Of a stretch of 64,000 nucleotides of DNA, positions 24,975 to 37,023 are shown in pieces (position 1 is the stretch's first letter; each line of letters begins with the position of its first letter). The position numbers and the translations under genes are program-made. Where the stretch lies: the NCBI GenBank assembly GCA_021787595.1, contig JAJYLQ010000005.1, positions 62,001-126,000 on the forward strand, in the 5' to 3' direction. The notes under the pieces are model-generated. The model was not told the DNA's origin, made no database searches, and saw only the letters and a list, made by a program, of their open reading frames with translations. The DNA is from Chloroflexota bacterium. GTDB lineage: Bacteria; Chloroflexota; Anaerolineae; Anaerolineales; Villigracilaceae.

Positions 24975-26549
24975 CTAGGCGGCGGCCAGACTTTCCCGGC
25001 TTTCATCCTTGCCTAACTTGAACAACATTCGGAATTCACGCTGGACGATCAGCAACGCGACGACCGTTCCGGCTGCCATCCCGATGATCGCGGTGATCAC
25101 CGCGCCGCCCGGGAGCATCACGGCCAGGACGTAAGCCGTGACTCCGCCAAATAGAGCGGCGGCCAGCCCTTTGAACAATGCCCCGTTAACTCCAACCGGC
25201 TCTTTCATGCGCCGATTCAAAATCGCGAACATGATGATCGCTTCGAGGGTCAGGGACAGTTCGGCGAGGGCGATTGCGGGCGCGCCAAGCGGCCGGAAGA
25301 AGACCACCGCCGAGATCCCGATTCCAAGGTAGACAATTAATCGAATGATAATCGTTGCCAATGGGATGAGCGCTTCCTTGCGCGCGTACAGGGCGCGCGC
25401 CGCAACTTCCTGGATCGCGTAGCCGCAAAGAGTTAACATATAAACGCGGGCGGTGGTGGTCATCAGGTTCGTGCCGGCTTCGTCGAAATGGAACGCGGCG
25501 CGGATCAACGGGTGCATGCCCGCGGCCATGATTGCCCCGGCGGGCAGAGTTAACGCGATCAAAACCTGGAGCGCCTTGTCAATCGTTTGATGGAACCCGC
25601 TCCAGTCGGCGCGCGCCGCGAGTTCGGAAAGAGTCGGGAGCATCGCGGTGGCAATCGCGGTCCCCAATAAAGTTTCGGGGACCTGCATAATCATCCAGCC
25701 ATACGTCAGGGACGAAATCGCGCCGGTTTGTCCAAGACGCGAAGCGAGATTGTCGCGCACCACGAACATGAGCTGCACGCCGAAGACGGTCAGCAAGCGC
25801 GGGCCGACAACTTTGAACACTTCGATGATGGCCGGCTCGTTGATTTTGATGGACGGCGTCCAGCGAAAGCCGTAACGGATGAGGCCGGGAATTTGAATCG
25901 CGAGGTGCATGGCCGCGCCGAGGATGACGCCGTAGACCAAACCGTACACGCCGAGGCCGAAGGATGGAAAGGTGATCGGGCCAAGCGTGTAGGGCGTTTT
26001 GGGCGCGAGGAACAACGCGCCGAAGATCTGACCGATGTTATAAAGAATCGGCGCAAGCGCAGGCAGAAGAAAATGTTGGTTGGCTTGCAAACCGGCGATC
26101 ACCAAACCGCTGATCGAAAAAATAAACGTTGCGATGAGATCGAGACGCATCAAATTTGCGATGACGTGCCGCTGCCCCACGTTGAAGCCGGGTGTGATCC
26201 AAAGCTGGACGATTTGATTGGCAAAGATGGCGATCACGATTGCCAGCGCGCCGGTGGCAAGAAAAGCCAGGTTGGCGACGCGCGAAAACAGGTCCCAGGC
26301 CTTATCGCGGTTCCCCAATGTCAGCGTTTGAGTCAGGACCGGGATAAATGCCATCGCCAGCGCGCCGCCGGAGATCAGGGCGGCTAATAAATCCGGCAGA
26401 TTATTCGCAACATTGAACGCATCCAACTCAAAGGATAAGTTGAATGTGCGCGCGATGATGATGGCGCGGACGAAGGCCAAAACTTTATCGAGCGTAAAGA
26501 AGAATCCGAGCAGGAGCGAGATGCGTGTGAGGAACGATAATTTCTTCAT
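24975..26549 (-). CDS. murJ: Lipid II flippase MurJ
   Basis: A 524 aa MOP-superfamily protein (MviN/MurJ), which flips the peptidoglycan precursor lipid II. About 14 hydrophobic segments are visible. Family marks are KVLAFVRAIIIARTFNLSFELDAFNVA near the N-terminus and PETLLGTAIATAMLPTLSELAA in the middle. Length is normal. It heads a minus-strand unit with the TPR and CopD-like genes. Confidence 0.9.
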   Translation of the reverse strand: MKKLSFLTRISLLLGFFFTLDKVLAFVRAIIIARTFNLSFELDAFNVANNLPDLLAALISGGALAMAFIPVLTQTLTLGNRDKAWDLFSRVANLAFLATGALAIVIAIFANQIVQLWITPGFNVGQRHVIANLMRLDLIATFIFSISGLVIAGLQANQHFLLPALAPILYNIGQIFGALFLAPKTPYTLGPITFPSFGLGVYGLVYGVILGAAMHLAIQIPGLIRYGFRWTPSIKINEPAIIEVFKVVGPRLLTVFGVQLMFVVRDNLASRLGQTGAISSLTYGWMIMQVPETLLGTAIATAMLPTLSELAARADWSGFHQTIDKALQVLIALTLPAGAIMAAGMHPLIRAAFHFDEAGTNLMTTTARVYMLTLCGYAIQEVAARALYARKEALIPLATIIIRLIVYLGIGISAVVFFRPLGAPAIALAELSLTLEAIIMFAILNRRMKEPVGVNGALFKGLAAALFGGVTAYVLAVMLPGGAVITAIIGMAAGTVVALLIVQREFRMLFKLGKDESRESLAAA

Positions 26550-26625
26550 GGCTACAATTTAACCATAGATTTTGTGTCGCAAAAAAATTCATCACGAATG
26601 TGACGAATGAACGAAGGACACGAAT

Positions 26626-26664
26626 TTAAAAATAAACAAACCCAGATGAAAAATCTGGGTTTGT
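26626..26664 (-). terminator. Terminator downstream of the SDR gene
   Basis: Minus-strand stem ACAAACCCAGAT/ATCTGGGTTTGT (12 bp, 5-nt loop) followed by TTATTTTTAAA. It ends the unit that includes the SDR and possibly the ArsA cluster. Confidence 0.75.
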
Positions 26665-26690
26665 CTCTCAATTGTTTCTGATTGATATTT

Positions 26691-26774
26691 TCGTCCTGAG
26701 CGGAGCGATGCGTAGTCGAAGGACATTTGGAAAGTGCGCTTCGACTGCGGATTCCATCCTCCGCTCAGCGCGAT
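26691..26774. repeat. CTGAGCGGAG / CCGCTCAGCG element
   Basis: Terminal inverted repeats TCGTCCTGAGCGGAG and CTCCGCTCAGCGCGA with inner GTCGAAGGAC/GCGCTTCGAC. Similar to 45000-45099. Confidence 0.7.
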
Positions 26775-26789
26775 AGAAACATTTGGAAT

Positions 26790-27581
26790 CTAAAACGTTG
26801 ATTTATATTGTCCGCCGTCAACGGTCAGCATTACGCCGGTGAGATACGACGCGGCGGGCGAAAGCAAAAAGACCGCCGCGTTCGCAAATTCTTCCGGTTT
26901 GCCGACGCGTCCAAAGACGCTCTTCTGTCCATCGAGTGCAAGTTCCTGTTCGAGCGTGGTGCCGTTCTTTTGCGCGCGGAAACCTGCAAGCTCGCGGATG
27001 CGGTCTGTGTCAATTGTGGCGGGCAAAATGGAATTGAAGCGGATGCCCGCGCTGCCAAGTTCGAGCGCAAGAGTTTTTGTCAAACCCACTGTCGCGGATC
27101 GTATGCTGTTCGATAAAACCAAATTTGGCAACGGCTGTTTGACCGTGTAGGATGTCATGGTCAGCACGCTGGCCGCGGACGATTTTCGCAAATGGGGCAG
27201 GGCGGCGCGGATGAGCCGCACGTGGCTCATGAAAGAAAGATTGATTGCTTTTTCCCAGGTGGCTTCATCGAACGAATCGAATGGGCCTGCCGGAGGTCCG
27301 CCGGCGTTGGTGACGAGCAGATCGAGTCCGCCCAAAGCTTTGACCGTCTGCTCGACCAATTTCTCCGGCACGGATGGATCGCTCACGTCTCCCGCGAGAC
27401 CCGTCACGGACGCGCCGGTCTCTTTGGCAATTTTCTCCGCCGCGGTTTTGACCTTCGCTTCATCGCGGCCATTGATCGCAACTTTGCATCCCTCTTTCGC
27501 GAGCAGGTGCGCGGTGGCGTACGCCAGTCCGCGCGAGGCACCGAGGACGAGGGCACGTTTGTCTTTGAGTCCTAAATCCAT
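26790..27581 (-). CDS. SDR-family oxidoreductase with altered active site
   Basis: A 263 aa short-chain dehydrogenase fold: cofactor loop GASRGLAYATA near residue 15, NAG motif in LLVTNAGGPP, and a C-terminal LTGVMLTVDGGQY. The usual YxxxK dyad is missing: the place reads LSNSIRSATVGL, giving Ser for Tyr and Arg for Lys. I recall a group of SDRs with this SNxxR pattern, so it may be a recognised subfamily; enzyme activity is uncertain. ATG 27581 has AAGGAG upstream (a GTG at 27587 is in frame). It is 66 bp downstream of the ArsA cluster's last gene and could be its last member. Confidence 0.8.
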   Translation of the reverse strand: MDLGLKDKRALVLGASRGLAYATAHLLAKEGCKVAINGRDEAKVKTAAEKIAKETGASVTGLAGDVSDPSVPEKLVEQTVKALGGLDLLVTNAGGPPAGPFDSFDEATWEKAINLSFMSHVRLIRAALPHLRKSSAASVLTMTSYTVKQPLPNLVLSNSIRSATVGLTKTLALELGSAGIRFNSILPATIDTDRIRELAGFRAQKNGTTLEQELALDGQKSVFGRVGKPEEFANAAVFLLSPAASYLTGVMLTVDGGQYKSTF

Positions 27582-27605
27582 TGTCACTCCTTGTCAACGC
27601 TGTTA

Positions 27606-27640
27606 GCTTCTCGTATATCGCGTATCGTGATACGCGATCC
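27606..27640. repeat. ATCGCGTATCG-type repeat
   Basis: TATATCGCGTATCGTGATACGCGAT is nearly self-complementary. The same words fill gaps at 27890-27965, 29951-30015 and 30378-30455 within the ArsA cluster. Confidence 0.6.
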
Positions 27641-27647
27641 GCCAATC

Positions 27648-27890
27648 CTAGAAAATCGCGTCCATCAAATCCCGTTCGCGCAACATGCGCCGCCGCCAGT
27701 TATTGATTTGTGGAATGATGAAGGGCAGCAAACGCAAACTGTAATACGGCGGAAGGATCGGCACACCCAGCAGGTCGCCGAAGCTGATCAACACGAAGAG
27801 ATGTTCCAATCCGCCGCGTTGTTTTGCCAACGTCCGCGCCTGGTCGTGGATGGCCATGCCATAAAGAATTTCGCGTGTGGCTTTTAGCAT
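27648..27890 (-). CDS. Small paralog C of the ArsA cluster
   Basis: 80 residues, clearly related to two other small proteins in this cluster. Shared marks are REILYGM, LEHLF, GDLLGVPILPPYYSLRLLP and a basic end (WRRRMLRERDLMD). The central part is hydrophobic enough to sit in or on a membrane, with Pro breaks. I do not recognise a named family. It lies directly after the two ATPase genes and is the shortest copy, lacking the basic N-terminal stretch. It could be a client or partner of the ATPases (inference). Confidence 0.7.
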   Translation of the reverse strand: MLKATREILYGMAIHDQARTLAKQRGGLEHLFVLISFGDLLGVPILPPYYSLRLLPFIIPQINNWRRRMLRERDLMDAIF

Positions 27891-27965
27891 ATCGCGTATG
27901 GCGTATCGCTATGGCGTATCGCGTACCGTGATGGGCGACAAGCGATACGCGATAAGCGATAAGCG
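27890..27965. repeat. ATCGCGTATGGC-type repeat
   Basis: Several tandem-like TATCGCGTATGGCGTATCGC words and a complementary GCGATACGCGATAAGCGATA half, between ArsA-1 and paralog C. Confidence 0.6.
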
Positions 27966-27970
27966 AATCA

Positions 27971-28954
27971 TCACACAAATAAACTGTCGGCAGTGCGCTT
28001 GAGCGACTCCGTACCGCGCACTTCGTTCTCGTACAGCGGGACGATGGAACGCACCATGCCTTCGAACTTTTGCCAGACATCGTCCATGTAGCGCGTCTGC
28101 ATGTCTACGCGGTTGCGGACGAAATCCGGCGATTTGTCGTTGACCTGGCTCTTGTCAATCAACATGTTGACGATCACGCCGCCCACCGGGATGCCGAAAT
28201 CGTGGAACCAGCCGATGAAGCGCGTGATTACCGCAATGGGCAGCGCTTCGGCCAGGGTCACGAAAAAGAACGCCGTCAGCGATGGATCAGTCAACAGAGT
28301 CTGCGCCTTGCCCATCCGGTCGCGGAACGAGACGAGGTAATCCATCAGCGGGTCGGCTTCTTTTTTCTTCGTGAACGAAAGCAGTTCGCGCAGCGAGCGC
28401 GCTTCTTCGCGGCTCTTCAACATCTTGTTGACCCACAACGAATAGACTTTCGACATGCCCAGCAAACGGCGGGCGTTGGCCGTCGGCGCGGTGTCGAACA
28501 CGTAGACATCGTATTCGTTGCCGAGCATCAGTTCCACCATGTTTTCGAACATGGCCGACTCTTCGAACGCCGGATTCATCGTGGCCGATTCGACGAACTC
28601 ATCCGCTTTGGTGGAAATATCTGCGAACTTCAGGAACCATTGGATCTTGTCGCGGATTTCCTGCTTGGATCGCTCGATGGTATCTTTCGTGTCAATTTCA
28701 TACGCCCACAAATTCGGAACGCCCTCGACCGCGGTCGGCTTGCCGAAGACATTTTGACCCAGCAGCCCGCTCAAGCTGTGGACCGGATTCGTGGAGGCCA
28801 GCATCACGCGCCGTCCCTGCTTCGCCAGCCAGATGGCCGTCGCGCCGGCCATCACGGTTTTTCCGACTCCGCCTTTACCGCCGAAGAAAATGTAGCGCAG
28901 CCGCTGGCGGTCCATTACATAAGCTTTCATGGAGGTTTCAATATTCTTTGTCAT
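27971..28954 (-). CDS. ArsA/Get3-like ATPase, copy 1
   Basis: A 327 aa SIMIBI-class ATPase. The P-loop is GGKGGVGKT (residues 25-33) with the signature Lys of deviant Walker A proteins. Switch I reads STNPVHSLSG, so the Asp expected in the DPxHS motif is Asn56. Switch II is DTAPTANARRLL, near the DTAPTGH consensus. The rest matches ArsA/Get3 length and helix pattern. Such ATPases act in arsenite export or in delivering tail-anchored membrane proteins; there are no arsenic genes nearby, which favours a protein-targeting or assembly role. AGGAGG precedes the ATG; it follows copy 2 by 10 bp. Confidence 0.88.
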   Translation of the reverse strand: MTKNIETSMKAYVMDRQRLRYIFFGGKGGVGKTVMAGATAIWLAKQGRRVMLASTNPVHSLSGLLGQNVFGKPTAVEGVPNLWAYEIDTKDTIERSKQEIRDKIQWFLKFADISTKADEFVESATMNPAFEESAMFENMVELMLGNEYDVYVFDTAPTANARRLLGMSKVYSLWVNKMLKSREEARSLRELLSFTKKKEADPLMDYLVSFRDRMGKAQTLLTDPSLTAFFFVTLAEALPIAVITRFIGWFHDFGIPVGGVIVNMLIDKSQVNDKSPDFVRNRVDMQTRYMDDVWQKFEGMVRSIVPLYENEVRGTESLKRTADSLFV

Positions 28955-28964
28955 CGTCAGCCTC

Positions 28965-29939
28965 CTATTTGCCGAACATGATTTCGGAAAGTCTCTGGAT
29001 CATTTCCAGCCCCGTCACGTCGCGTTCCAGTTCCGGCACGTGCGCTGCCACTTGATTTCCAAACATGGTTTTGATCTGTTCCAGATATTTATCCTGCATT
29101 TCGATTCGATTTTTTAAGTACGGTGGAATGTTTTGCTGGAGCAGTTCGTGCGGAATGACGCGGTTCACCACGTAGCCCATGATCGGCACATCGAATTTGG
29201 CGAACAAGTCCGCCGCTTTTTCGGTGTCGATCAGGATCATTTCCTCGGGAATCACCACGAAGAAGAATCCTGTTTTCTCCTTATCGGTGAGAATTTGGGA
29301 GGAGGAGTTGATTCGCTTGCGGATGTATTGCAATTCCTTGAGAATCTCATCCTCTTCGCTTTCCTTCTCGCGTTTGAGCCGCGAGACCATTTCTTCGTAT
29401 TCGCGCATTTCCTCGCGCAACTTCGTGATCTTGTTGATCCACTCGTCATAGACTTTTGCCATGCTCAAATAATAAAGCGCATGACCCAATGGCACGAGAT
29501 CATAGATGTAATAATCGTAATTCCCCTCCACGACGATGTCCACCACCGCGTCGAAAATGGCGCTTTCCTCCATCGCCGGTTCTGCGGACGCGGCCTGGAT
29601 GTATTGCTCCACCTCCTCCGGCACCTGATCGAACCCATACATGTCGAGAATCTTCTTGCGGATTTCGCCCTGATAGGCTTTGATGTGCTGGTCGGCATCA
29701 ATTTCCTGCGCCCACAAATTGTCCATGATCTTGACCGGACCTTTTCCGAAGATGTCCTCCTGGAAAATGTCCGAAAGACTGGCTTGCGGGTCAACGGAAA
29801 AGACCAGCACTTTCTTGCCTTGTTTTGCCAGCCAGTAAGCCGTCGCGGCGGAGAATGTGGTTTTGCCCAGCCCGCCCTTCCCTCCGAACATGATGTAGCG
29901 GCGTTCGGGATGTTCCTCGAAAATCTGCTTTAGTGTCAT
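28965..29939 (-). CDS. ArsA/Get3-like ATPase, copy 2
   Basis: A 324 aa ATPase of the same family, about as long as copy 1. The P-loop is GGKGGLGKT (19-27), and switch I keeps the Asp (SVDPQASLSD, Asp50). Switch II is changed: DLVPLGHALYYL in place of DTAPTGH. A long helical, charged middle part (KLREEMREYEEMVSRLKREK) fits the client-binding helical domain of Get3 but is highly charged. AGGAG precedes the ATG. The complementary defects of copies 1 and 2 suggest an obligate heterodimer. Confidence 0.88.
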   Translation of the reverse strand: MTLKQIFEEHPERRYIMFGGKGGLGKTTFSAATAYWLAKQGKKVLVFSVDPQASLSDIFQEDIFGKGPVKIMDNLWAQEIDADQHIKAYQGEIRKKILDMYGFDQVPEEVEQYIQAASAEPAMEESAIFDAVVDIVVEGNYDYYIYDLVPLGHALYYLSMAKVYDEWINKITKLREEMREYEEMVSRLKREKESEEDEILKELQYIRKRINSSSQILTDKEKTGFFFVVIPEEMILIDTEKAADLFAKFDVPIMGYVVNRVIPHELLQQNIPPYLKNRIEMQDKYLEQIKTMFGNQVAAHVPELERDVTGLEMIQRLSEIMFGK

Positions 29940-29950
29940 GAATTGCTCCT

Positions 29951-30015
29951 CGTTATAGCTTATCGCTTATGGCATATCGCATATTGGTCATCGTGATTTA
30001 TGATGCGCAATACAT
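29951..30015. repeat. ATCGCTTATGGC-type repeat
   Basis: TAGCTTATCGCTTATGGCATATCGC and related words between ArsA-2 and the four-helix-bundle gene. Confidence 0.55.
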
Positions 30016-30018
30016 AAA

Positions 30019-30372
30019 TCATTTCAGAGTCCTGCGGAACGCATTGATCTTTCGCGCCAGCGCATCGCCCCATTCGTACATTTCTTTCTGCTGCTCTGCA
30101 GAAATATATTTGCGGTCAAGCGCCAGAAACGAGCCGGAAACCGTTTCGAATGTTTCGCCGACAGCCAATCCAAGCCGATGATTGAAAAGCGCGTCTGTTT
30201 GCAAACCGGAGCCTTCGGCTATCAGTAACGAAACTGCGTCCGATGCCCGATTGATCTGGTCTGAAAGCGCATACATTTCGTGTCTCGGAAACGTCGCTGT
30301 CACCTTGTGGATCTTTTCCGAAAACTCACGCGCCCTTTGCCAAATTTCCAATCCCTCGAAACGGAATGGCAT
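30019..30372 (-). CDS. Four-helix-bundle protein (23S rRNA IVP family)
   Basis: 117 residues, all helical, with family marks FEGLEIWQRAREFSEKI at the start, SDQINRASDAVSLLIAEGSG in the middle and an ALARKINAFRR end. The family includes proteins encoded in 23S rRNA intervening sequences and the Avd accessory of diversity-generating retroelements; the role of free-standing copies is unclear. AAAGGAGTCCAC precedes the ATG. It interrupts the ArsA cluster and is flanked on both sides by the ATCGCGTATGGC-type repeats, which suggests insertion. A second copy starts beyond the window's right edge. Confidence 0.85.
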   Translation of the reverse strand: MPFRFEGLEIWQRAREFSEKIHKVTATFPRHEMYALSDQINRASDAVSLLIAEGSGLQTDALFNHRLGLAVGETFETVSGSFLALDRKYISAEQQKEMYEWGDALARKINAFRRTLK

Positions 30373-30377
30373 GTGGA

Positions 30378-30455
30378 CTCCTTTCGCTTATCGCGTATGG
30401 CTTATCGCGTATCGCCTATGGCTTATCGCGATATGCGATTTGCGATATGCGAATC
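30378..30455. repeat. ATCGCGTATGGC-type repeat
   Basis: Repeated CTTATCGCGTATGGCTTATC words followed by GCGATATGCGATTTGCGATA. With 29951-30015 it brackets the four-helix-bundle gene. Confidence 0.6.
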
Positions 30456-30737
30456 CTAAAACATGGCGTCCGAGACGTCCTTTTCGCGCAGCAGCCGCCG
30501 CTTCCAGGTTGCGATTTGCGGCACAACGTACGGGAGCAGACGCAGGCTGTAATACGGCGGCAGGATCGGGATGCCGATCATATCGCCCATCGTAATCAAG
30601 ATGAAAAGATGTTCCATGCTGGCGCGCGTCCGCAGGGCATAGCGGCTCATATCGTGCGAAGCCATGCCATACAGGATTTCCTGCATGTTTTTGAAGAAAC
30701 CTTTCTTTTCAGGTTGTTTGGGTTTTTCCTCGCTCAT
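30456..30737 (-). CDS. Small paralog B of the ArsA cluster
   Basis: 93 residues. A charged N-terminus (SEEKPKQPEKKGFFKN) precedes the shared core: QEILYGM, RASMEHLFILITMGD, MIGIPILPPYYSLRLLP, QIATWKRRLLREKDVSD. The 13-residue PILPPYYSLRLLP is identical in all three paralogs. ATG at 30737 is favoured (AAAGGA 7 nt upstream); 30740 is also ATG. No named family recognised. Its position just ahead of the ATPases and the strong conservation point to a shared function with them. Confidence 0.75.
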   Translation of the reverse strand: MSEEKPKQPEKKGFFKNMQEILYGMASHDMSRYALRTRASMEHLFILITMGDMIGIPILPPYYSLRLLPYVVPQIATWKRRLLREKDVSDAMF

Positions 30738-30780
30738 CATTGATTCCTTTCTGATTTAGAATTCCTGCGCATCGCAGTTT

Positions 30781-30850
30781 CACCACCGGGAACACAGAGT
30801 TTCTTCTTTTATTTTCTCTGTGAACTCTGTGTTCCCGGCGTACTATGTGG
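30781..30850. repeat. CACCACCGGGAACACAGAG inverted repeat
   Basis: Left CACCGGGAACACAGAGTTTC pairs with right TCTGTGTTCCCGGCG. Between paralogs B and A; same type as the insertion in the glycosyltransferase gene. Confidence 0.75.
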
Positions 30851-30881
30851 TAAAAGTTTGCTACTTTTTCACTTTAAAGTC

Positions 30882-31181
30882 CTACAAACCATCCAGATGA
30901 TAATCGTGCTCGTCACTGAACTCGCGCTGTCTCAACACGCGGCGTTTCCAGGTTGAAATGTGCGGGACCAAATAAGGCAATAAGCGCAAACTATAATAAG
31001 GCGGCAGGATCGGAACACCGATCATATCTCCCACCGTTGCCAGCATGAATAAACTTTCAAGGCTGGCGCGCATCCCCATGGCATGTTCGGCGATTTCCAT
31101 CCCAAACATACCGTACAGGAATTCCCGGATGGACTGCAAAAAGCCGCTGCGCCTGTGTGTTTGAACCATATCGCTTTTCAT
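30882..31181 (-). CDS. Small paralog A of the ArsA cluster
   Basis: 99 residues at most. Core: REFLYGMFGMEIAEHAMGMR, SLESLFMLATVGDMIGV, PILPPYYSLRLLP, HISTWKRRVLRQREFSD, and an extra acidic C-terminus. A TATAAT ends right at the first ATG, so the second in-frame ATG (31169, five codons on) may be the real start of a leaderless transcript. It is the first gene of the minus-strand cluster A-B-(IVP)-ArsA2-ArsA1-C. Confidence 0.75.
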   Translation of the reverse strand: MKSDMVQTHRRSGFLQSIREFLYGMFGMEIAEHAMGMRASLESLFMLATVGDMIGVPILPPYYSLRLLPYLVPHISTWKRRVLRQREFSDEHDYHLDGL

Positions 31182-31187
31182 ATTATA
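31182..31187 (-). promoter_or_regulatory. -10 box for the ArsA cluster
   Basis: Minus-strand TATAAT directly before paralog A. The intergenic space to the divergent gene at 31228 is only 46 bp, so both promoters overlap here. No clear -35 was found. Confidence 0.45.
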
Positions 31188-31227
31188 CTGGCTCTTGTGC
31201 TACGGATAAAACCACTCGAGGTGTGTG

Positions 31228-31881
31228 ATGAACCCACAATATTTCCTGGCGCTGGCGGTCATGATCGTCATGGGCTGGTTCGCCTTTGGCATTATTTATA
31301 ATTTGCGCCGCGGCGATGCCGTACTCAAATGGATGCAATCCGGTTTGCCGCGCATCGGCGAGAAGACAACCTTTCGCTGGCTGGGCACGTCCGTGGCGGA
31401 ACTCGTCATTGCGCACGCCAAGCCGCCTTTTCGCCGTCTCGAGACGTTGCTGGTCATGAAGCCGCGCGATGTTTTTTGGATGACGATCATGGCGGCAATC
31501 CAGCGGCGCGACGATGTGCTGATCTTCCGCGCCCAACTCAACACGCCTCCGCTTCTGGACCTCGAACTGGCGGATCCAAAAACGTGGAGCGGACGCTCGT
31601 CCCTGGAGCGCGCCCGCCAACGCGGTTGGGAGGGCAAACCTTATCATGATTTGCAGTTGATGGCACCCAAAGGTCTGCTCGACCTTGCGGCTTCGACTGT
31701 GGATAAGTTGAACGAGCCGATGCAAAAATTTTCGCCGCGCTATGCGCGGCTCAGTCTGCGGAAGGATATGCCGAATCTCGAAATCCACATTCCCTTCCCG
31801 GATTACAAAAAGACTGATTCAACAAATCATTTCGATGCACTGCGCAATTTGGCGCGTGCCGTCATCGAACGCAATGACTGA
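31228..31881 (+). CDS. Membrane-anchored hypothetical protein
   Basis: 217 residues with one N-terminal membrane segment (YFLALAVMIVMGWFAFGIIY, about 4-23) and a soluble, probably cytoplasmic domain (RRG follows the helix). The domain has no motif I recognise; recurring features are EKTTFRWLGTSVAELVIAHA, LLVMKPRDVFW and a Pro/Phe-rich HIPFPDY end. ATG 31228 follows GAGGTG; a GTG one codon upstream is possible. It is divergent from the ArsA cluster and shares its promoter region, so a functional link is plausible but unproven. Confidence 0.6.
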   Translation: MNPQYFLALAVMIVMGWFAFGIIYNLRRGDAVLKWMQSGLPRIGEKTTFRWLGTSVAELVIAHAKPPFRRLETLLVMKPRDVFWMTIMAAIQRRDDVLIFRAQLNTPPLLDLELADPKTWSGRSSLERARQRGWEGKPYHDLQLMAPKGLLDLAASTVDKLNEPMQKFSPRYARLSLRKDMPNLEIHIPFPDYKKTDSTNHFDALRNLARAVIERND

Positions 31882-31887
31882 GTCTCA

Positions 31888-32012
31888 TGTCGTTGCGAGG
31901 AGTGGTGCTATCAGCGCACGACGAAGCACTGCGTTTTGTCAGTGTGGCAATCTCCAGTTTGGTGGTTAGTTGAGATTGCCACGCGGCGCTTTGGCGCCAC
32001 TCGCAATGACAA
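31888..32012. repeat. GTCATTGCGAG-family inverted repeat
   Basis: Left end TGTCGTTGCGAGGAGTGG, right end CCACTCGCAATGACA; inner GTGGCAATCTCC/GAGATTGCCAC. Full-length copy of the family. Confidence 0.8.
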
Positions 32013-32022
32013 CATGATCTTC

Positions 32023-32052
32023 AAGAGGAGACGCATGATTGCGTCTCCTCTT
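32023..32052. terminator. Hairpin between convergent genes
   Basis: A 12-bp perfect stem AAGAGGAGACGC/GCGTCTCCTCTT with a 6-nt loop, lying between the stops of the 31228 gene and cstA. The sequence after it on the plus strand is AT-rich (CTAATAATTAA) but has no T-run. Confidence 0.55.
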
Positions 32053-32068
32053 CTAATAATTAACGAGG

Positions 32069-33994
32069 TCAATCAGCTGCAGCCGGCGCAGCTTTCTTGG
32101 CCTGACCAGCGCCTTTGGCGAAGCGTTGATACGCCTGATAGCCATCCCAGCCGATGAACAACGCCGCCACGAAGAGCAGAACGGCAATGAGGATCATTGC
32201 CCACGCGCCAGCCGCCGCGAAGCCGCCCTGCGGCACGATGGTCACCAGCAGGTTGCGCGCTGTCACGAGCGTGGCCGCCAGCGTGGTGATATACATGAAG
32301 ATTGTAGGCCACAACGCGAAAGCCGGATTCTTCTTCTGCTGCTTCAACCAAACCGTGACGATCAACAGGCTCAACGCCGCCATCAACTGGTTGGCCGCGC
32401 CGAACAACTGCCACAGGTAAACCCAGGTGCCGGTCAACACCAACAGCATGGTCAGCAGCATCGAGATGACGGTCGAAACGTGCATGTTCTTGAGCGCAGG
32501 CGCAGCTTCGCCGCCCCATTCCGAAAGCGTGACGCGCATGACGCGGAAGACGAGTTGGGTTACCGTCAGCACGATGATCATGAACGTGCCGAAACCGAGC
32601 GCGGTACCAAATATCTTAAAGCCGGCGCCAAATATGACCGTCAACAGGGTACCCACGCCAGCCGCAAATCTTCCAGCACCGCCTCCAGCACCGACGATGG
32701 ACACGGCGACCAGCGAAAGCAGCGCCAGCGTATTCTCGGTGAACATCGCGCCGCCGCCCACGGGCAGGGCATCCGTCTCGTATTCCAACTGGCGGGCAGT
32801 TCCAATCGAGCCGATCAACGCGTGCCAGCCGGAAATCGCGCCGCAGGCGATCGTCACAAATAGCATCGGCCACAAAGGCTGCCAGGCTTTGGTTGGATCA
32901 TAGGCAAAGCCCAGCGTCGAAACAGCAGGAAGCCGAAAATCAGCGATGCGAACCGCAACGCCCGCCGCATTTGGGGCTGTCGCTCCTGTAATCGGGGCCA
33001 GGATCGCGCCAATGGTGCTGAAACCAATCGCCAGAAGCGTGATCCAGAATCCGATATAGTTGACCGGCTGAGCAAACCTCCAGATGGGCAGCGTTGCCGC
33101 AAGATAGGAAAACACCAGCAGGAATAGCGCCCACAGGAGATAAGACGGCATGGTCTTGATTGCACCGGTCGCGGCGTCGTAGAGCGCAGTGGAAGCTCGC
33201 TTCCCATCCGGACCCGGAATGGGAACGCGCGGGTCCGCAGAGGTCGGGTCGGTGACAGTGAAGAGGGCATTGCCTCCGCTTATCTTATTAACAGCGCCGT
33301 TGATTCCCAGAAAAACAGAACTGATCGGTCCCTTGGAAAAGTCAGGCACACCTTGCGTATTGACGTTCACGCCAAGCGGGCCGAAGATCACGGCCGCCAG
33401 GGTCACGATGACCACGATGGCGGTGACCAGGATCAAATCCATCTTCCATCTATAGAGCATCTGTCCGGCAAGGAAGCCCATCACGCCGAGGGCGATGATA
33501 CCGAGCGGAACATCCGGACGGGCGGCCATCAAAGCGGCCATGATGCCCATGAAGGCGCCGGCCACCAGCAGCAGATAGAAGAAGATGAAGGTGAAGAGAA
33601 TCGAGCGTGTGCGCGGGGCGATCAATTTATGGCTGATGGCGCTCAAGCTGTTGCCGTCATTGCGGACTGCGACCACGATGGCGCTGTAGTCGCTGACCCA
33701 GCCGATGAACGACACGCCGATCATCAGCCATAACAGGGAAGGCAGCCAGCCCCAGATCGCCGCGGCCGTGATCACGCCGACGATTGGTCCGGCGGCGGCG
33801 ATGGACTTGAAGTGATAGCCGTACAGCACGTTGCGGCTGGTTGGCATGAAGTCCACGCCGTCCATATACATCTTGGCGGGCGTGGCTTTCTTCGCATCCG
33901 CCTGGATGACGGTGCGGTCAATATACTTGGCGTAAAAGTTGTAAGCCAAGTAAATGACGACTGCCGCAATGAGAACGATCCATAGCGTATTCAT
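32069..33994 (-). CDS. cstA: Carbon starvation protein CstA-family transporter
   Basis: A 641 aa polytopic protein of the CstA family, whose studied members take up pyruvate or peptides. Family marks are the N-terminal RDGVDFMPT-like part (MYMDGVDFMPTSRNVLYGYHF), AAAGPIVG, and GWVSDYSAI with many membrane helices; the C-terminal tail is Lys/Ala-rich. Length is normal for the shorter CstA group. It lies 132 bp downstream of a small CxxC protein gene and the structured leader, with which it likely forms an operon. Confidence 0.9.
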   Translation of the reverse strand: MNTLWIVLIAAVVIYLAYNFYAKYIDRTVIQADAKKATPAKMYMDGVDFMPTSRNVLYGYHFKSIAAAGPIVGVITAAAIWGWLPSLLWLMIGVSFIGWVSDYSAIVVAVRNDGNSLSAISHKLIAPRTRSILFTFIFFYLLLVAGAFMGIMAALMAARPDVPLGIIALGVMGFLAGQMLYRWKMDLILVTAIVVIVTLAAVIFGPLGVNVNTQGVPDFSKGPISSVFLGINGAVNKISGGNALFTVTDPTSADPRVPIPGPDGKRASTALYDAATGAIKTMPSYLLWALFLLVFSYLAATLPIWRFAQPVNYIGFWITLLAIGFSTIGAILAPITGATAPNAAGVAVRIADFRLPAVSTLGFAYDPTKAWQPLWPMLFVTIACGAISGWHALIGSIGTARQLEYETDALPVGGGAMFTENTLALLSLVAVSIVGAGGGAGRFAAGVGTLLTVIFGAGFKIFGTALGFGTFMIIVLTVTQLVFRVMRVTLSEWGGEAAPALKNMHVSTVISMLLTMLLVLTGTWVYLWQLFGAANQLMAALSLLIVTVWLKQQKKNPAFALWPTIFMYITTLAATLVTARNLLVTIVPQGGFAAAGAWAMILIAVLLFVAALFIGWDGYQAYQRFAKGAGQAKKAAPAAAD

Positions 33995-34126
33995 ACGTAC
34001 TCCTTTCTTTGGCGAGAATAAAGGAACAGTTGATTACTACCCGGTTCTGATTGAACAGTGCCTATTACCGCCTTGCGAATGGATGTGTATCTCTGCAAAG
34101 CACCTCCTCTCGAGTTTTTGGGCCGA

Positions 34127-34516
34127 TCAATTTGCAACCTGAGCCGTCAGCAGGTCTGCGATCTTGTTGCTGGCTGACGTCAGGGAGTTGCTCCCCGTGA
34201 AGCGGGCCTCGCCGTTCACGATCACAGCCGGGAAGCGGTGCATCCCATATTTCAGGGATTTGTAGAATCCCTCGATGGACGCGGCGTCGATCACCTTGAC
34301 CACGACGCGGTCGCAATGCACCCGGAAGATCTCCCGTACCCAGTCGGAGATGGCCTGGTATTCCTGGAGCAGATCCGCGGGCAGACTGCTCTCGAGCTGT
34401 TCCTCGTGAACGCGCTGCATGCGGCCCGTCTCACTCCATGCGACTTCGCAATGTGTACAGTGATAGAAGGCCGTCGGCGCGTAGGCCAGGATTTCAACTT
34501 CTAAAGGTTTTTCCAT
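34127..34516 (-). CDS. Small CHCTHC protein, thioredoxin-like fold suspected
   Basis: 129 residues. An N-terminal strand (LEVEILAYAPTAF) is followed by YHCTHCEVAW, a possible redox or metal site, and the C-terminal half has FPAVIVNGEARFTGSNSL, resembling the cis-Pro side of thioredoxin-like folds. GGAG precedes the ATG at 34516; a longer frame enters the leader hairpin. It sits between the attenuator-like leader and cstA. I do not recognise a named family; a role in sensing or maturing the transporter system is only a guess. Confidence 0.6.
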   Translation of the reverse strand: MEKPLEVEILAYAPTAFYHCTHCEVAWSETGRMQRVHEEQLESSLPADLLQEYQAISDWVREIFRVHCDRVVVKVIDAASIEGFYKSLKYGMHRFPAVIVNGEARFTGSNSLTSASNKIADLLTAQVAN

Positions 34517-34530
34517 GTCTGTCTCCTGCC

Positions 34531-34668
34531 AAATAAAAAACGCCAACAAGCAATAGACCGCTCATTGGCGCGTGACGAACTTGTACTGGCCAGCAGAAGC
34601 ATCTGCCAGTGATGGGCTTGGAAGAGGTTAGTCGTGTTCCGTGCGGATTTCGACATTGAACTGCCCAT
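34531..34668 (-). ncRNA. Structured leader with terminator (candidate riboswitch)
   Basis: Read 5' to 3' on the minus strand: a closing helix ATGGGC (34663-34668) with GCCCAT (34612-34617) encloses a GTCG/CGAC stem and a CCG/CGG hairpin; a second hairpin ACTGGC...GCCAGT spans 34585-34610; last comes CGCCAA...TTGGCG (34541-34570) with an inner AGC/GCT stem and TTTTTTATTT. The terminator ends 15 nt before the small-ORF start. The layout (aptamer-like part plus terminator) resembles a riboswitch or attenuator. I could not match it to a known class. Confidence 0.55.
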
Positions 34669-34748
34669 TTTATGAAAGTTTAACACCGAATTTGCATTCA
34701 GGTTTTCTTTTGTGGGAATTTCGTTCGACTAATTTTTCACTGGAAAAA

Positions 34749-34776
34749 ATTATATGACGTTTTCCCTGAAAAGCAA
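34749..34776 (-). promoter_or_regulatory. Promoter for the cstA leader
   Basis: Minus-strand TTGCTT (34771-34776) and TATAAT (34749-34754) with a 16-bp spacer. Transcription would begin near 34742 and give a leader of about 225 nt. Confidence 0.6.
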
Positions 34777-34805
34777 GTCTTTCATTGTGAAATTTGACAC
34801 GCGAA

Positions 34806-35087
34806 CTACATCAACTCCATCGTTCGATCCATGATTTGGCCATCGGGCCAATTGGCTTCGACCCATTTCGCCACGCTCTGCAATGATCGCTGAAGTTGTG
34901 CCGCGTCGTTCCCAACCATGGCGCAGGCGATGACGGCTTCCTGCCACTTGTCCTGCAGATCCATTTCCGCGACCGAAACGTTGAACTCGCGGTGCAGCCG
35001 CGCGATCAACGGCTTGATGCGTCCGCGCTTTTCTTTGAGCGAGGAACAGGCGGGAAGGTGAAGATGGATGGTAAGAGTACCGATCAT
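34806..35087 (-). CDS. DUF503 (YlxP-like) protein
   Basis: 93 residues matching the DUF503 family: an N-terminal strand (IGTLTIHLHLPACSSLKEKR, then IKPLIARLHREFNVSVAE), and WQEAVIACAMVGNDAAQ. The family is small, basic or neutral, and in Firmicutes lies near ribosome-assembly genes; its function is not settled. The ATG overlaps the HIT stop (TAATG), implying translational coupling. Confidence 0.85.
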   Translation of the reverse strand: MIGTLTIHLHLPACSSLKEKRGRIKPLIARLHREFNVSVAEMDLQDKWQEAVIACAMVGNDAAQLQRSLQSVAKWVEANWPDGQIMDRTMELM

Positions 35088-35506
35088 TATTTCATCGCTT
35101 CACGCAATTTGCCAACAAGTGTGGTGACGTCTATTTCATTACATCTGTCATCTCTTGCAAGGAATTTCAATCCTCGTTCGGACACATCTTTTCCGCGCGG
35201 CACTATCCAGCAATGGAAGTGCGGCTGGCCTTCCATCGTGGAGAGTTGATAAATTCGTTCCGCATCGGTGTGGAGTTTGACCGCGTGGTATGCCTTCTTG
35301 AGCACCAAGCCAAGCGAGGCCGATTCTTCAGGTGTCATTTCTGAATAATCGAGAAAATGCCGCTTTGACTCGATGAACAAAGTCCCCAGTGGGCCTTTAT
35401 CCACTGGAGCATGACAGACCCTCCAATGCCCATCTTCGTAAATATAGCCACCAGGCGGGACGGCTTCCTGTCCAAGATGTTTGCGGCAGATGAAACAAGT
35501 ATCCAT
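35087..35506 (-). CDS. HIT-like protein
   Basis: 139 aa HIT/GalT-superfamily protein. It starts MDTCFICRKH, has a GHWRVCHAPVDKGPLGTLFI middle, and the histidine motif as GQPHFHCWIVPR, where the third His of HxHxH is Trp. GalT-type relatives also carry a CxxC near the start. Likely a nucleotide hydrolase/transferase. ATG 35506 has GGAG six bases upstream; the much longer upstream frame overlaps the LCP gene and is rejected. Confidence 0.75.
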   Translation of the reverse strand: MDTCFICRKHLGQEAVPPGGYIYEDGHWRVCHAPVDKGPLGTLFIESKRHFLDYSEMTPEESASLGLVLKKAYHAVKLHTDAERIYQLSTMEGQPHFHCWIVPRGKDVSERGLKFLARDDRCNEIDVTTLVGKLREAMK

Positions 35507-35523
35507 GACCATCTCCGATTGCC

Positions 35524-37023
35524 TCAATGCGACAAATCCTGCGGCTGGAAGCAGGGCTGATAATCGTAGCCAATAATCAGGCGATATTGTGTCGCGCTGT
35601 TCGGCTTCGGCGCGGACAAAACCGCGGCCGAGTCGGTCAATCCGAGCGATGTGAGAATCGTGTTGCGCGCATTGGCATCTTGTGAAGAAGTGTAATCTAT
35701 CAAAACCGAGTGAGTGTAATTTTGGCGGTCGGTGTTGGAAATGGTTGTAGCGTAGCCGGCGTAATTGAGTCGACTCGAAGCGAGTGTTGCCCAACCATTG
35801 TACGGCGTTCCATTTTGAACTTCGACAGCGACCTTTTGCCGTTGTGTCGCCGAAGTTGAAAGCGTTGTCGCTTCCACTAAATATTGCTGGAGCGATGGCT
35901 GGTTCGGCAGGAGAACGTCCGCGCCGCCGGGCGTGACCCACGCGGTAACATAAGGCGGGCGAATGTAATAACTGCGGATGTTCGCGTTGGTCAACTTGGG
36001 GGCGTAGAGAGCCAGTTTCAAGATGTCTGCCAGATTGAGGTCCGTGGTGACTGTGCTGGAAAGGTCGCTATAAAGCTGCGGGATGCGCGTCAAAATATTT
36101 GTCTGCAACGCCTGAGAAAAAATCGCGCGCAGAACCTCCTGCTGGCGGCGGCTTCGATCAAAATCATTCGATGCCTGGCGTGAACGCGCATACCACAGCG
36201 CGAGATCGCCGTCCATGTGGATGGTGCCGGATTGGACCGTGTATTTCTGCCAGTTGTTCGGGTTCGTTGGATCGTAACTCGGATCAATCAAACGCCAGTC
36301 CGTGTACGGGCACGCGACCGGAACATCCACACCGCCCAGCGTATTGATGATGCGGCTGAAGCCGCTGAAATCCACCAGCGCGGTGTGATCAATGCGGATG
36401 CCGAGGTTGTAGGCGATGGCATCCTTCAACAAACCCGCGCCGCCTCCTGCGTAATCGTCCATGTTGCCGTATTCGTAGGCTGTGTTGACGCGCTGCATTC
36501 CAATGGTGGGAATATAAATCCACAGATCGCGCGGGATCGAGATCAGCGAAGCCTGTCCCTCCTGCGGCCACAAAATTGCCAGCACCAATGTGTCGGTGCG
36601 GAACGAATTGCCATTACGCAGGTCCGAACCGATCAACAAAAAGTTGACCGAATCATTGTTCGACAAAAGCGGCTCGGGCGTCGGACCCTGGCCGGATGTA
36701 TCTGGCGGAGGCGGCGCGGCCAACGTTGGGAAGAGCGAGCTCAAGTCAACAGTCGGCGTGGGCTGGATGGGCGGGATGGGGGTTGGCGATGGAGTGGTGG
36801 TGGGAAAGAATGGTTCGAGCGTCGGGACCCGGATGTTGTACAGCGACGTTGGCGTGACCTGCTCGACGAGCGGCGGCTGGAACGGCGTCGGCGTGGGCGA
36901 GGCGTTCGGCGCGGATGTGATCAACACGAACGGCAATGGCGCGGGCGTGGGCGCGGGGACTGTGCCACACGAGGCGAGCAGCAATGTAAGCAATAAGATA
37001 AACCTGCGCGTGGATGATTTCAT
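35524..37023 (-). CDS. LytR-CpsA-Psr (LCP) family lipoprotein
   Basis: LCP enzymes transfer undecaprenyl-linked glycopolymers to peptidoglycan. The 499 aa protein starts with a lipoprotein signal (RRFILLLTLLLASC, lipidated Cys19), then a Thr/Pro linker of about 100 residues, the LCP domain (FLLIGSDLRNGNSFRTDTLV; SLISIPRDLWIYIP; DVPVACPY; ALWYARSRQASNDFDRSRRQQ) and a C-terminal LytR_C-like domain (VAVEVQNGTPYNGWA). Most LCP proteins have a membrane helix in place of a lipobox. ATG 37023 gives the signal peptide; upstream frame is rejected. Confidence 0.88.
   Translation of the reverse strand: MKSSTRRFILLLTLLLASCGTVPAPTPAPLPFVLITSAPNASPTPTPFQPPLVEQVTPTSLYNIRVPTLEPFFPTTTPSPTPIPPIQPTPTVDLSSLFPTLAAPPPPDTSGQGPTPEPLLSNNDSVNFLLIGSDLRNGNSFRTDTLVLAILWPQEGQASLISIPRDLWIYIPTIGMQRVNTAYEYGNMDDYAGGGAGLLKDAIAYNLGIRIDHTALVDFSGFSRIINTLGGVDVPVACPYTDWRLIDPSYDPTNPNNWQKYTVQSGTIHMDGDLALWYARSRQASNDFDRSRRQQEVLRAIFSQALQTNILTRIPQLYSDLSSTVTTDLNLADILKLALYAPKLTNANIRSYYIRPPYVTAWVTPGGADVLLPNQPSLQQYLVEATTLSTSATQRQKVAVEVQNGTPYNGWATLASSRLNYAGYATTISNTDRQNYTHSVLIDYTSSQDANARNTILTSLGLTDSAAVLSAPKPNSATQYRLIIGYDYQPCFQPQDLSH

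Follow-up and report, generated by a model that had tools for sequence, protein, structure and literature searches.

A probable CstA-CstX-ArsA operon with two divergent ArsA-type ATPases in a Chloroflexota genome

What role could two ATPases of the ArsA/Get3 type play beside three small paralogous proteins? This question is raised by a gene cluster in a stretch of 64,000 nucleotides from a Chloroflexota bacterium (assembly GCA_021787595.1, contig JAJYLQ010000005.1, positions 62,001 to 126,000 of the forward strand), which we call the window and whose first letter is position 1 in all coordinates below. A preliminary description of this DNA listed six genes of the cluster, regarded the small proteins as adaptors, clients or a membrane receptor of a dedicated ATPase machine, and knew of no described system with this composition. 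According to our analysis, the cluster is very probably a CstA-CstX-ArsA operon, which unites a CstA-family transporter, the small protein CstX and ArsA-type ATPases. The CstA gene lies 0.9 kb upstream of the six genes on the same strand and had been missed, and operons of this type have been published (Castillo and Saier, 2010; PMC2963123). The view that no described system is comparable is therefore wrong, because the gene set includes CstA and fits the operons of Castillo and Saier.

Composition and identity of the cluster

On the minus strand, the genes are transcribed in the order thioredoxin-like protein, CstA, small protein A, small protein B, four-helix-bundle protein, ArsA2, ArsA1 and small protein C. 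The gene of a protein of 218 amino acids (aa) lies on the opposite strand between CstA and A. The features are as follows.

32069..33994, minus strand: CstA-family transporter, 641 aa, first core gene (PF02554, 345 bits, E 1e-102; alignable with CstA of E. coli K-12)
30882..31181, minus strand: small protein A, 99 aa, CstX-like, distal copy (open reading frame, alignment, tree position)
30456..30740, minus strand: small protein B, 94 aa, CstX-like, core copy adjoining ArsA (open reading frame, alignment; NF041419 33.9 bits, below cut-off)
28965..29939, minus strand: ArsA2, first ATPase of the pair, 324 aa, with KGGLGKT and SVDPQASL (catalytic Asp) (TIGR00345, 248.5 bits)
27971..28954, minus strand: ArsA1, second ATPase of the pair, 327 aa, with KGGVGKT and STNPVHSL (Asn for Asp) (TIGR00345, 222.5 bits)
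27648..27890, minus strand: small protein C, 80 aa, CstX-like, downstream copy (open reading frame, alignment, tree position)
31225..31881, plus strand: divergent 218-aa protein, predicted N-terminal transmembrane (TM) helix and alpha/beta domain, CCDC47-like fold, candidate CstY counterpart (AlphaFold2 (AF2) model)
30019..30372, minus strand: four-helix-bundle / 23S rRNA intervening-sequence protein, 117 aa (PF05635, 90.7 bits)
34127..34549, minus strand: thioredoxin-like protein, 140 aa, CxxC, upstream of CstA (weak DUF1525 and Thioredoxin_3 matches, below cut-off)

The place, order and strand of the six genes from A to C had been given correctly, but the list stopped one minus-strand gene before CstA and included the four-helix-bundle gene, which is a sporadic insertion. 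The gap between CstA and A is 887 bases, and that between ArsA2 and ArsA1 is 10 bases. The genome encodes one CstA, two full-length ArsA-type ATPases and three small proteins of this type, all of them inside the cluster; four further ArsA-type matches reach only 23-30 bits over short stretches.

The identity of the cluster follows from three features. First, CstA is encoded with an ArsA homologue, the PF02554 gene lying upstream of the ATPases on the same strand. Second, A and B lie between CstA and ArsA and have approximately the 90 aa of a CstX, a correspondence judged by size and place only. Third, the ATPases are single-domain proteins within the range of 300-340 aa and have no ars genes beside them. 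We do not place the identification higher than very probable because CstX is matched by size and place only and because its single TM segment is borderline. The absence of arsenic genes, already pointed out in the preliminary description, is confirmed by our scan: besides the two ATPases, there is no ars protein among the 13 proteins scanned in the cluster and its surroundings. The only ArsB-family match in the genome (50 bits, cut-off 22) lies on another contig, and an arsenic operon was rejected on these two grounds.

The small proteins and their genomic neighbourhood

Sequence identity to A is 52% for small protein B and 50% for C. The three had been described as paralogs, which is correct; they share LYGM, [LM]E-x-LF, GD[ML][IL]G and W[KR]RR, together with a 13-residue PILPPYYSLRLLP that is the same in all three. 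The W[KR]RR motif is not their C-terminal end, however, as had been supposed; it is followed by 18, 12 and 12 residues in A, B and C, and these include an invariant Asp. The 39 bases that encode PILPPYYSLRLLP show 6, 7 and 10 differences in the three pairs, and the identity of this segment is therefore not the result of recent copying. A search of Pfam at E 1 gave no family for A, B or C. The sole NCBIfam relative common to the three is NF041419, 'cory-CC-star', whose cut-off of 80 bits is not reached (A 30.2, B 33.9 and C 35.5 bits); in the wider small-protein alignment, all 69 members match NF041419 at E 0.001 or better. The proteins end in GL (A), MF (B) and IF (C) and not in Cys-Cys, an ending that occurs once among 187 small-protein sequences, in that of Cytobacillus. 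A, B and C fit CstX by size and place and are distant relatives of cory-CC-star.

Each small protein has a single hydrophobic stretch on the Kyte-Doolittle scale, with a peak of 1.55-1.71 that is borderline for a TM segment, and 40, 31 and 34 residues lie behind it in A, B and C. The stretch contains an invariant Gly and a near-invariant Asp. An AF2 model of B, of low confidence (pLDDT 72, pTM 0.33), consists of two helices meeting at a PILPP turn. Neither a sequence search for solved structures nor Foldseek with this weak model gave a match for B; B also matches TatC weakly (E 0.035). Our guess is that the small proteins dip into the membrane as a hairpin whose basic end lies in the cytosol.

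The association with ATPases and CstA was examined in genome contigs matched by an alignment of A, B and C. This alignment was the only query, neither ArsA nor CstA being used to pick loci, and the best 80 of 336 relatives were used, a choice by small-protein similarity that favours close relatives. ArsA is present in 77 of the 80 loci, and two ArsAs are present in 73. A finding of small-protein homologs mostly without ATPase genes had been named in advance as what would speak against a dedicated ATPase machine, and the reverse was observed; the idea of such a machine, in which the small proteins are adaptor, receptor or client, is thus supported, and the small proteins are probably its adaptor. 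CstA lies within the fetched stretch in 70 of the 80 loci (59/66 among those with more than 3 kb upstream), and in 69 a copy has the same orientation as the small-protein gene. The other ten loci belong to nine genomes, each of which encodes CstA outside the fetched stretch. Seven loci have fewer than two ArsAs; six of these end at a contig end, and the seventh, L107, is discussed below. By record title, the loci come from Chloroflexota, Acidobacteria, Gemmatimonadetes, deltaproteobacterial lineages, Rokubacteria and others. The minimal form, CstA followed by one B-type protein and two ArsAs, characterizes most deltaproteobacterial loci. The arrangement of CstA, small protein(s), ArsA and ArsA recurs across several phyla.

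The association also extends to unlinked genes. Among 400 Chloroflexota genomes, the small protein was found in 38, CstA in 39 and both in 36, the counts being taken as the same draw; the Fisher p of 2.5e-45 is overstated because related genomes were treated as independent. In four genomes with both (G171, G184, G200 and G269), the two genes are far apart or on different contigs. In E. coli, constitutive pyruvate uptake requires CstA together with the small protein YbdD (PMC5847655). The YbdD family, PF04328, was found in none of the 400 phylum genomes and in none of 36 genomes of loci with titles other than Chloroflexota (L060, L074 and L108 left out), and the E. coli and C. glutamicum controls were positive in both searches. 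In a control panel of 14 genomes for the small-protein and CstA profiles, C. glutamicum, E. coli and B. subtilis have CstA and no small-protein match; therefore, not every CstA goes with CstX. Furthermore, cory-CC-star matches occur in six plasmid records, and the three of these that were inspected all have the order CstA, cory-CC-star and one ArsA. The cory-CC-star and ArsA genes overlap in two of the three, and in one record a 95-aa gene stands between CstA and cory-CC-star. A search of plasmids with B itself gave no relative.

The three copies differ in position. In a tree of 187 small-protein sequences, which contains some duplicates and in which each sequence was placed with the nearest of A, B and C, 82 of 85 B-type proteins adjoin ArsA and the remaining three have no ArsA in the fetched stretch (here and below, contig ends are counted in). 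The A-type is the distal upstream copy in 60 of 70 cases. Among 32 C-type proteins, 18 are downstream of the ATPase pair, 3 are downstream and inverted, and 8 come from stretches without ArsA; some C-type copies lie away from ArsA in genomes with the operon elsewhere, and the copy of L117 is at a contig end. In L118-L123 and L128, CstX-like genes stand among unrelated genes, away from ArsA and CstA, in genomes that mostly have the operon elsewhere; in L118 and L119, a member of the 218-aa family is encoded about 3 kb from the stray gene. The loci L124-L127, from another Chloroflexota group, have a second and divergent CstX-like copy, which lies about 1.0-1.6 kb behind the ATPase pair and adjoins a thioredoxin-like gene.

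The four-helix-bundle gene was rejected as a subunit of the system because it is a sporadic insertion between B and ArsA: few compared loci have one, and relatives occupy the same place only in one genome (L008/L040), in L054 and perhaps in L035. Heptamer-type short repeats (TATCGCG / GCGATAA etc.) occupy the intergenic gaps 27890-27966, 29953-29984 and 30384-30452, and two of these three gaps flank this gene. Relatives of the thioredoxin-like gene occur in 35 of the 80 loci. A thioredoxin-like gene also stands directly upstream of CstA in four stretches without CstX and ArsA (L172, L175, L176 and L177), and it therefore seems to follow CstA. An Rfam scan of 26500-36000 gave no match.

The ATPase pair, the divergent protein and the proposed mechanism

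ArsA2 and ArsA1 are 36% identical. Both exceed the cut-off of the TRC40/GET3/ArsA family TIGR00345 (135 bits), and neither reaches that of the arsenical pump family TIGR04291 (111.5 and 112.4 bits against 650); each chain has one domain. The closest solved relative of ArsA1 is the single-domain ATPase 3ug6, and the mycobacterial ATPases Rv3679/Rv3680 (6bs3) are distant relatives. The P-loop distinguishes the two genes in all 78 loci with two full-length ATPases: GKGGLGK belongs to the first and GKGGVGK to the second. The other active-site motifs were compared in 101 loci (ATPases above 250 bits and 900 bases), which left 88 pairs once near-identical ones were removed. Switch I reads S[VT]DPQASL in the first chain and S[TL]NPVHS[LI] in the second, with Asp in 88/88 and Asn in 88/88 (87 pairs by pattern and the last, L162, by eye). 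At switch II, YDLVPLGH or FDMPPFGH in one chain stands against FDTAPTAN or FDTAAVAN in the other, and a zinc-type CxxC is absent from both chains in all 88 pairs.

In a tree of the 78 pairs, the first and second ATPases are reciprocally monophyletic (support 0.993), and the mean identity is 72% within the first clade, 70% within the second and 34% between them. The single ArsAs beside annotated cory-CC-star proteins on plasmids of Cytobacillus, Paracoccus and Pseudochrobactrum (n=3) have the canonical STDPAHNL and DTAPTGH. Because two old clades split by Asp and Asn contrast with these canonical single ArsAs, an ancestral homodimer has probably been turned into a fixed asymmetric pair. The switch-I Asp positions water in Get3 (D57 of yeast), and members of the Get3 family without the zinc CxxC exist (PMC10248533). 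The hydropathy of the TRC40-insert segment in the 78 loci showed no useful difference from an archaeal Get3 segment; as a mark of a Get3-type tail-anchor machine, the hydrophobic insert was rejected.

The 218-aa family has no believable match in Pfam or NCBIfam, and a TolQ profile match at E 0.002 that covers about 95 residues was disbelieved. The AF2 model of the protein is of high quality (pLDDT 96, pTM 0.89). Its best structural match is chain 4 of 7tm3 (Z 16.2, 212 residues, 3.1 A; Foldseek E 1.9e-7), followed by chain 4 of 9i78 (Z 14.1), chain 7 of 6w6l (Z 10.3; Foldseek E 3.1e-4) and TtfA (Z 9.7); the remaining matches are at or below 7.2, and the sequence identity to the matched structures is 6-10%. 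We take the chains of 7tm3, 9i78 and 6w6l as CCDC47 from the subjects of the entries and the papers, not from chain names, because these structures show the multipass, SND3 and TMCO1 translocons and the placed range or domain of CCDC47 agrees. The SND3 translocon paper places CCDC47 residues 76-370, the range matched here (PMC12572126), and the TMCO1 translocon paper describes a globular cytosolic domain and assigns no density to the TM part (PMC7505659). The model has the TM helix and subsequent cytosolic alpha/beta domain of the CCDC47 fold, a fold that by itself shows no function. The C-terminal coiled coil of CCDC47 is missing, the protein ending after the globular domain. No sequence match to CCDC47 was found in Pfam at E 0.1 with 37 members of the family or in the PDB at E 10.

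The 218-aa family is present in 51 of the 80 loci and in 34 of 396 phylum genomes. Thirty-one of these genomes have CstX and 32 have CstX or CstA, partly unlinked, and G288 and G370 have neither and give weaker matches to the family. Seven of the 38 CstX genomes are outside the 34, the family was undetected in the fetched stretches of the deltaproteobacterial minimal operons, and a search of plasmids gave no relative. According to Castillo and Saier, CstY is a protein of approximately 210 aa with a single TM segment in archaeal operons (PMC2963123). By size, single TM segment and place in the operon, the 218-aa protein may be this CstY.

CstA-family carriers import pyruvate or peptides. We lean, though only slightly, toward the reading that the ATPase pair, docked via CstX, energises or gates CstA. 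The two single-domain ATPases would form a heterodimer, and the CstX-type proteins, above all B, would hold it at the membrane. Contact via CstX would then drive or gate the CstA carboxylate/peptide transporter, as ArsA does ArsB. An asymmetric cycle is suggested because the switch-I Asp is kept in only one chain: one site would hydrolyse ATP, and the other would probably mainly bind ATP and keep the dimer closed. CstX would occupy the role that YbdD holds beside CstA of E. coli, A and C would be added CstX copies that perhaps tune or cap the complex, and the CCDC47-like protein would be an accessory membrane subunit. This scheme builds on observations, which are the genes and their co-occurrence, the ancient divergence of the two ATPases with its constant Asp/Asn difference, and the lack of YbdD in the genomes searched; the heterodimer, the docking and the energising or gating of CstA are what we infer from them.

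Several observations weigh against this scheme. The link between the ATPases and transport by CstA is drawn from gene context, and the CCDC47-like fold points equally to membrane-protein biogenesis. Asn at switch I may still allow hydrolysis. L107, a 3-kb contig of a WOR-3 record, has CstA and CstX followed by an unrelated transporter-like open reading frame and no ArsA; its region L107:1548-3091 might be an ATPase-free form or belong to a mis-binned contig. The small protein was found without CstA in G002 (73% complete) and G233 (contig begins at the gene), and CstA was found without the small protein in G105 (contig ends 99 bases past CstA), G089 and G170. In the latter two (L170 and L171), CstA scores low on the profile of the window type, with no CstX or YbdD in the genome and no ArsA in the fetched stretch; some CstAs may need no such partner. 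Weak NF041419 matches (E up to 0.1, below the cut-off) were found in two of the 14 controls, Haloferax volcanii and Synechococcus elongatus, and CstA was found in the former and not in the latter, where the match is perhaps due to chance and perhaps to a CstA-free use. A Halomarina plasmid carries an ArsA relative (26% identity) beside a transporter of the MFS type and not beside CstA. We know of no ATPase for BtsT or for CstA of E. coli. BtsT, a member of the CstA family, has been termed an H+/pyruvate symporter (PMC7730263). For these last two reasons, ATP may serve assembly and not transport.

That possibility leads to the first alternative, a dedicated machine for assembling CstA, which we consider possible but rather unlikely. 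Here a Get3-like heterodimer would shield or hand over hydrophobic segments during insertion and assembly of CstA, which is a large multipass protein, and ATP would be spent on assembly. CstX would act inside the membrane as a small chaperone or subunit, and the CCDC47-like protein would hold the membrane site. The TIGR00345 scores and the similarity of ArsA1 to 3ug6 agree with such a machine, as do the resemblance of the 218-aa model to chains of the multipass and SND3 translocons, with TM helix and globular domain in the same order, and the presence of CstX or CstA in 32 of the 34 genomes with the family. However, the TRC40-insert hydropathy does not set the ATPases apart either way, and the 218-aa gene is missed in the deltaproteobacterial minimal operons and in seven CstX genomes. 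A weaker match to this fold is TtfA, which we take to be one of two accessory proteins of MmpL3, and a CCDC47-like fold therefore fits a transporter subunit as well. The transporter MmpL3 forms a complex with two accessory proteins (PMC6593404). The full picture of a machine that builds one multipass transporter, with a Get3-type heterodimer in which one site works and the other is silenced, CstX as an adaptor within the membrane and a bacterial protein corresponding to CCDC47, is doubtful.

It is improbable that CstX is instead the client, captured by the Get3-type pair and delivered to the membrane, where CstX alone would complete CstA. The single moderately hydrophobic stretch with its 31 to 40 residues behind, the Get3-like ATPases and the frequent presence of more than one CstX copy per pair would suit a client. 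However, the peak hydropathy is low, an invariant Gly and a near-invariant Asp are unexpected in a tail anchor, and it would be expensive for a cell to keep two ATPases for the sake of one or three small proteins. Least credible of all is mere co-regulation with CstA in a starvation response without physical contact, which would agree with a link known from genes alone and with the recurrent thioredoxin-like gene but conflicts with the co-occurrence of unlinked CstX and CstA, the absence of YbdD in the searches, the cory-CC-star/ArsA gene overlaps and the recurrence of one three-gene core in records from Bacillota, Alphaproteobacteria and Chloroflexota.

If an ArsA-type ATPase drives or gates CstA, the operon represents a further example, in addition to ArsB, of a carrier that has become dependent on ATP. 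If the ATPases assemble CstA, it represents a bacterial assembly line with a CCDC47-fold protein, which bears on the origin of parts of the eukaryotic multipass translocon; eukaryotic CCDC47 would have prokaryotic relatives already working beside Get3-type ATPases. In either case, the name 'arsenical pump-driving ATPase', carried by single-domain relatives such as 3ug6, would be misleading for ArsA1 and ArsA2. The strict split between Asp and Asn makes the mechanism directly testable by single-residue changes.

Comparison with known systems

The closest known system is that of Castillo and Saier (2010), whose operons likewise unite CstA, a CstX of about 90 aa and a single-domain ArsA of about 330 aa without ars genes. 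These authors reported 26 CstA-ArsA associations, 24 of them with CstX, and suggested that ArsA energises CstA by hydrolysing ATP, with CstX as the coupling element (PMC2963123). Their cluster 15 includes two adjacent ArsA genes in Pyrobaculum arsenaticum and Symbiobacterium thermophilum; they stated that such ArsAs may be homodimers and that the Asp of the SXD motif is replaceable only by Asn (PMC2963123). Unlike the operons as described there, the present cluster combines three copies of CstX with a divergently transcribed protein of CCDC47-like fold and with two ATPases whose active sites differ in a fixed manner. Both these operons and NF041419 were defined from sequence. The cory-CC-star proteins of the Cytobacillus, Paracoccus and Pseudochrobactrum plasmids resemble A, B and C in length, can be aligned with them and lie between CstA and ArsA, and a model built from A, B and C alone scores the three annotated proteins at 35.6, 28.3 and 21.8 bits. 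They differ in ending in Cys-Cys, which is our own reading of the name, and in being encoded with one ArsA of canonical site.

The E. coli CstA-YbdD pair (PMC5847655) is similar in that a CstA-family carrier has its needed small partner encoded adjacently; in contrast, YbdD belongs to another family (PF04328), and the system as described there has no ATPase. The ArsA-ArsB arsenite pump offers the likeness of a soluble ArsA-fold ATPase on a membrane carrier, whereas here the ATPase is encoded as two separate genes, lacks CxxC and has no ArsB neighbour in view. Get3/TRC40 shares the fold family, the GKGG-type P-loop and the single domain, but it has neither the Asp/Asn-split pair nor a tie to one transporter, and the zinc CxxC is missing here. 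The modelled 218-aa protein resembles CCDC47 and mycobacterial TtfA in its predicted TM helix and alpha/beta domain, and it differs from CCDC47 in having no coiled-coil tail.

In the open-access papers searched, 'CstX' and 'CstA' occur together only in PMC2963123, and nothing was found on 'cory-CC-star' or 'halo-CC-star'. The form with two ATPases, one altered catalytic site and a translocon-fold neighbour seems to be unstudied. Compared with the account of Castillo and Saier and this literature, the new elements are the catalytic asymmetry of the ATPase pair, the co-occurrence of unlinked CstX and CstA, the absence of YbdD, the three positional types of CstX and the component of CCDC47-like fold.

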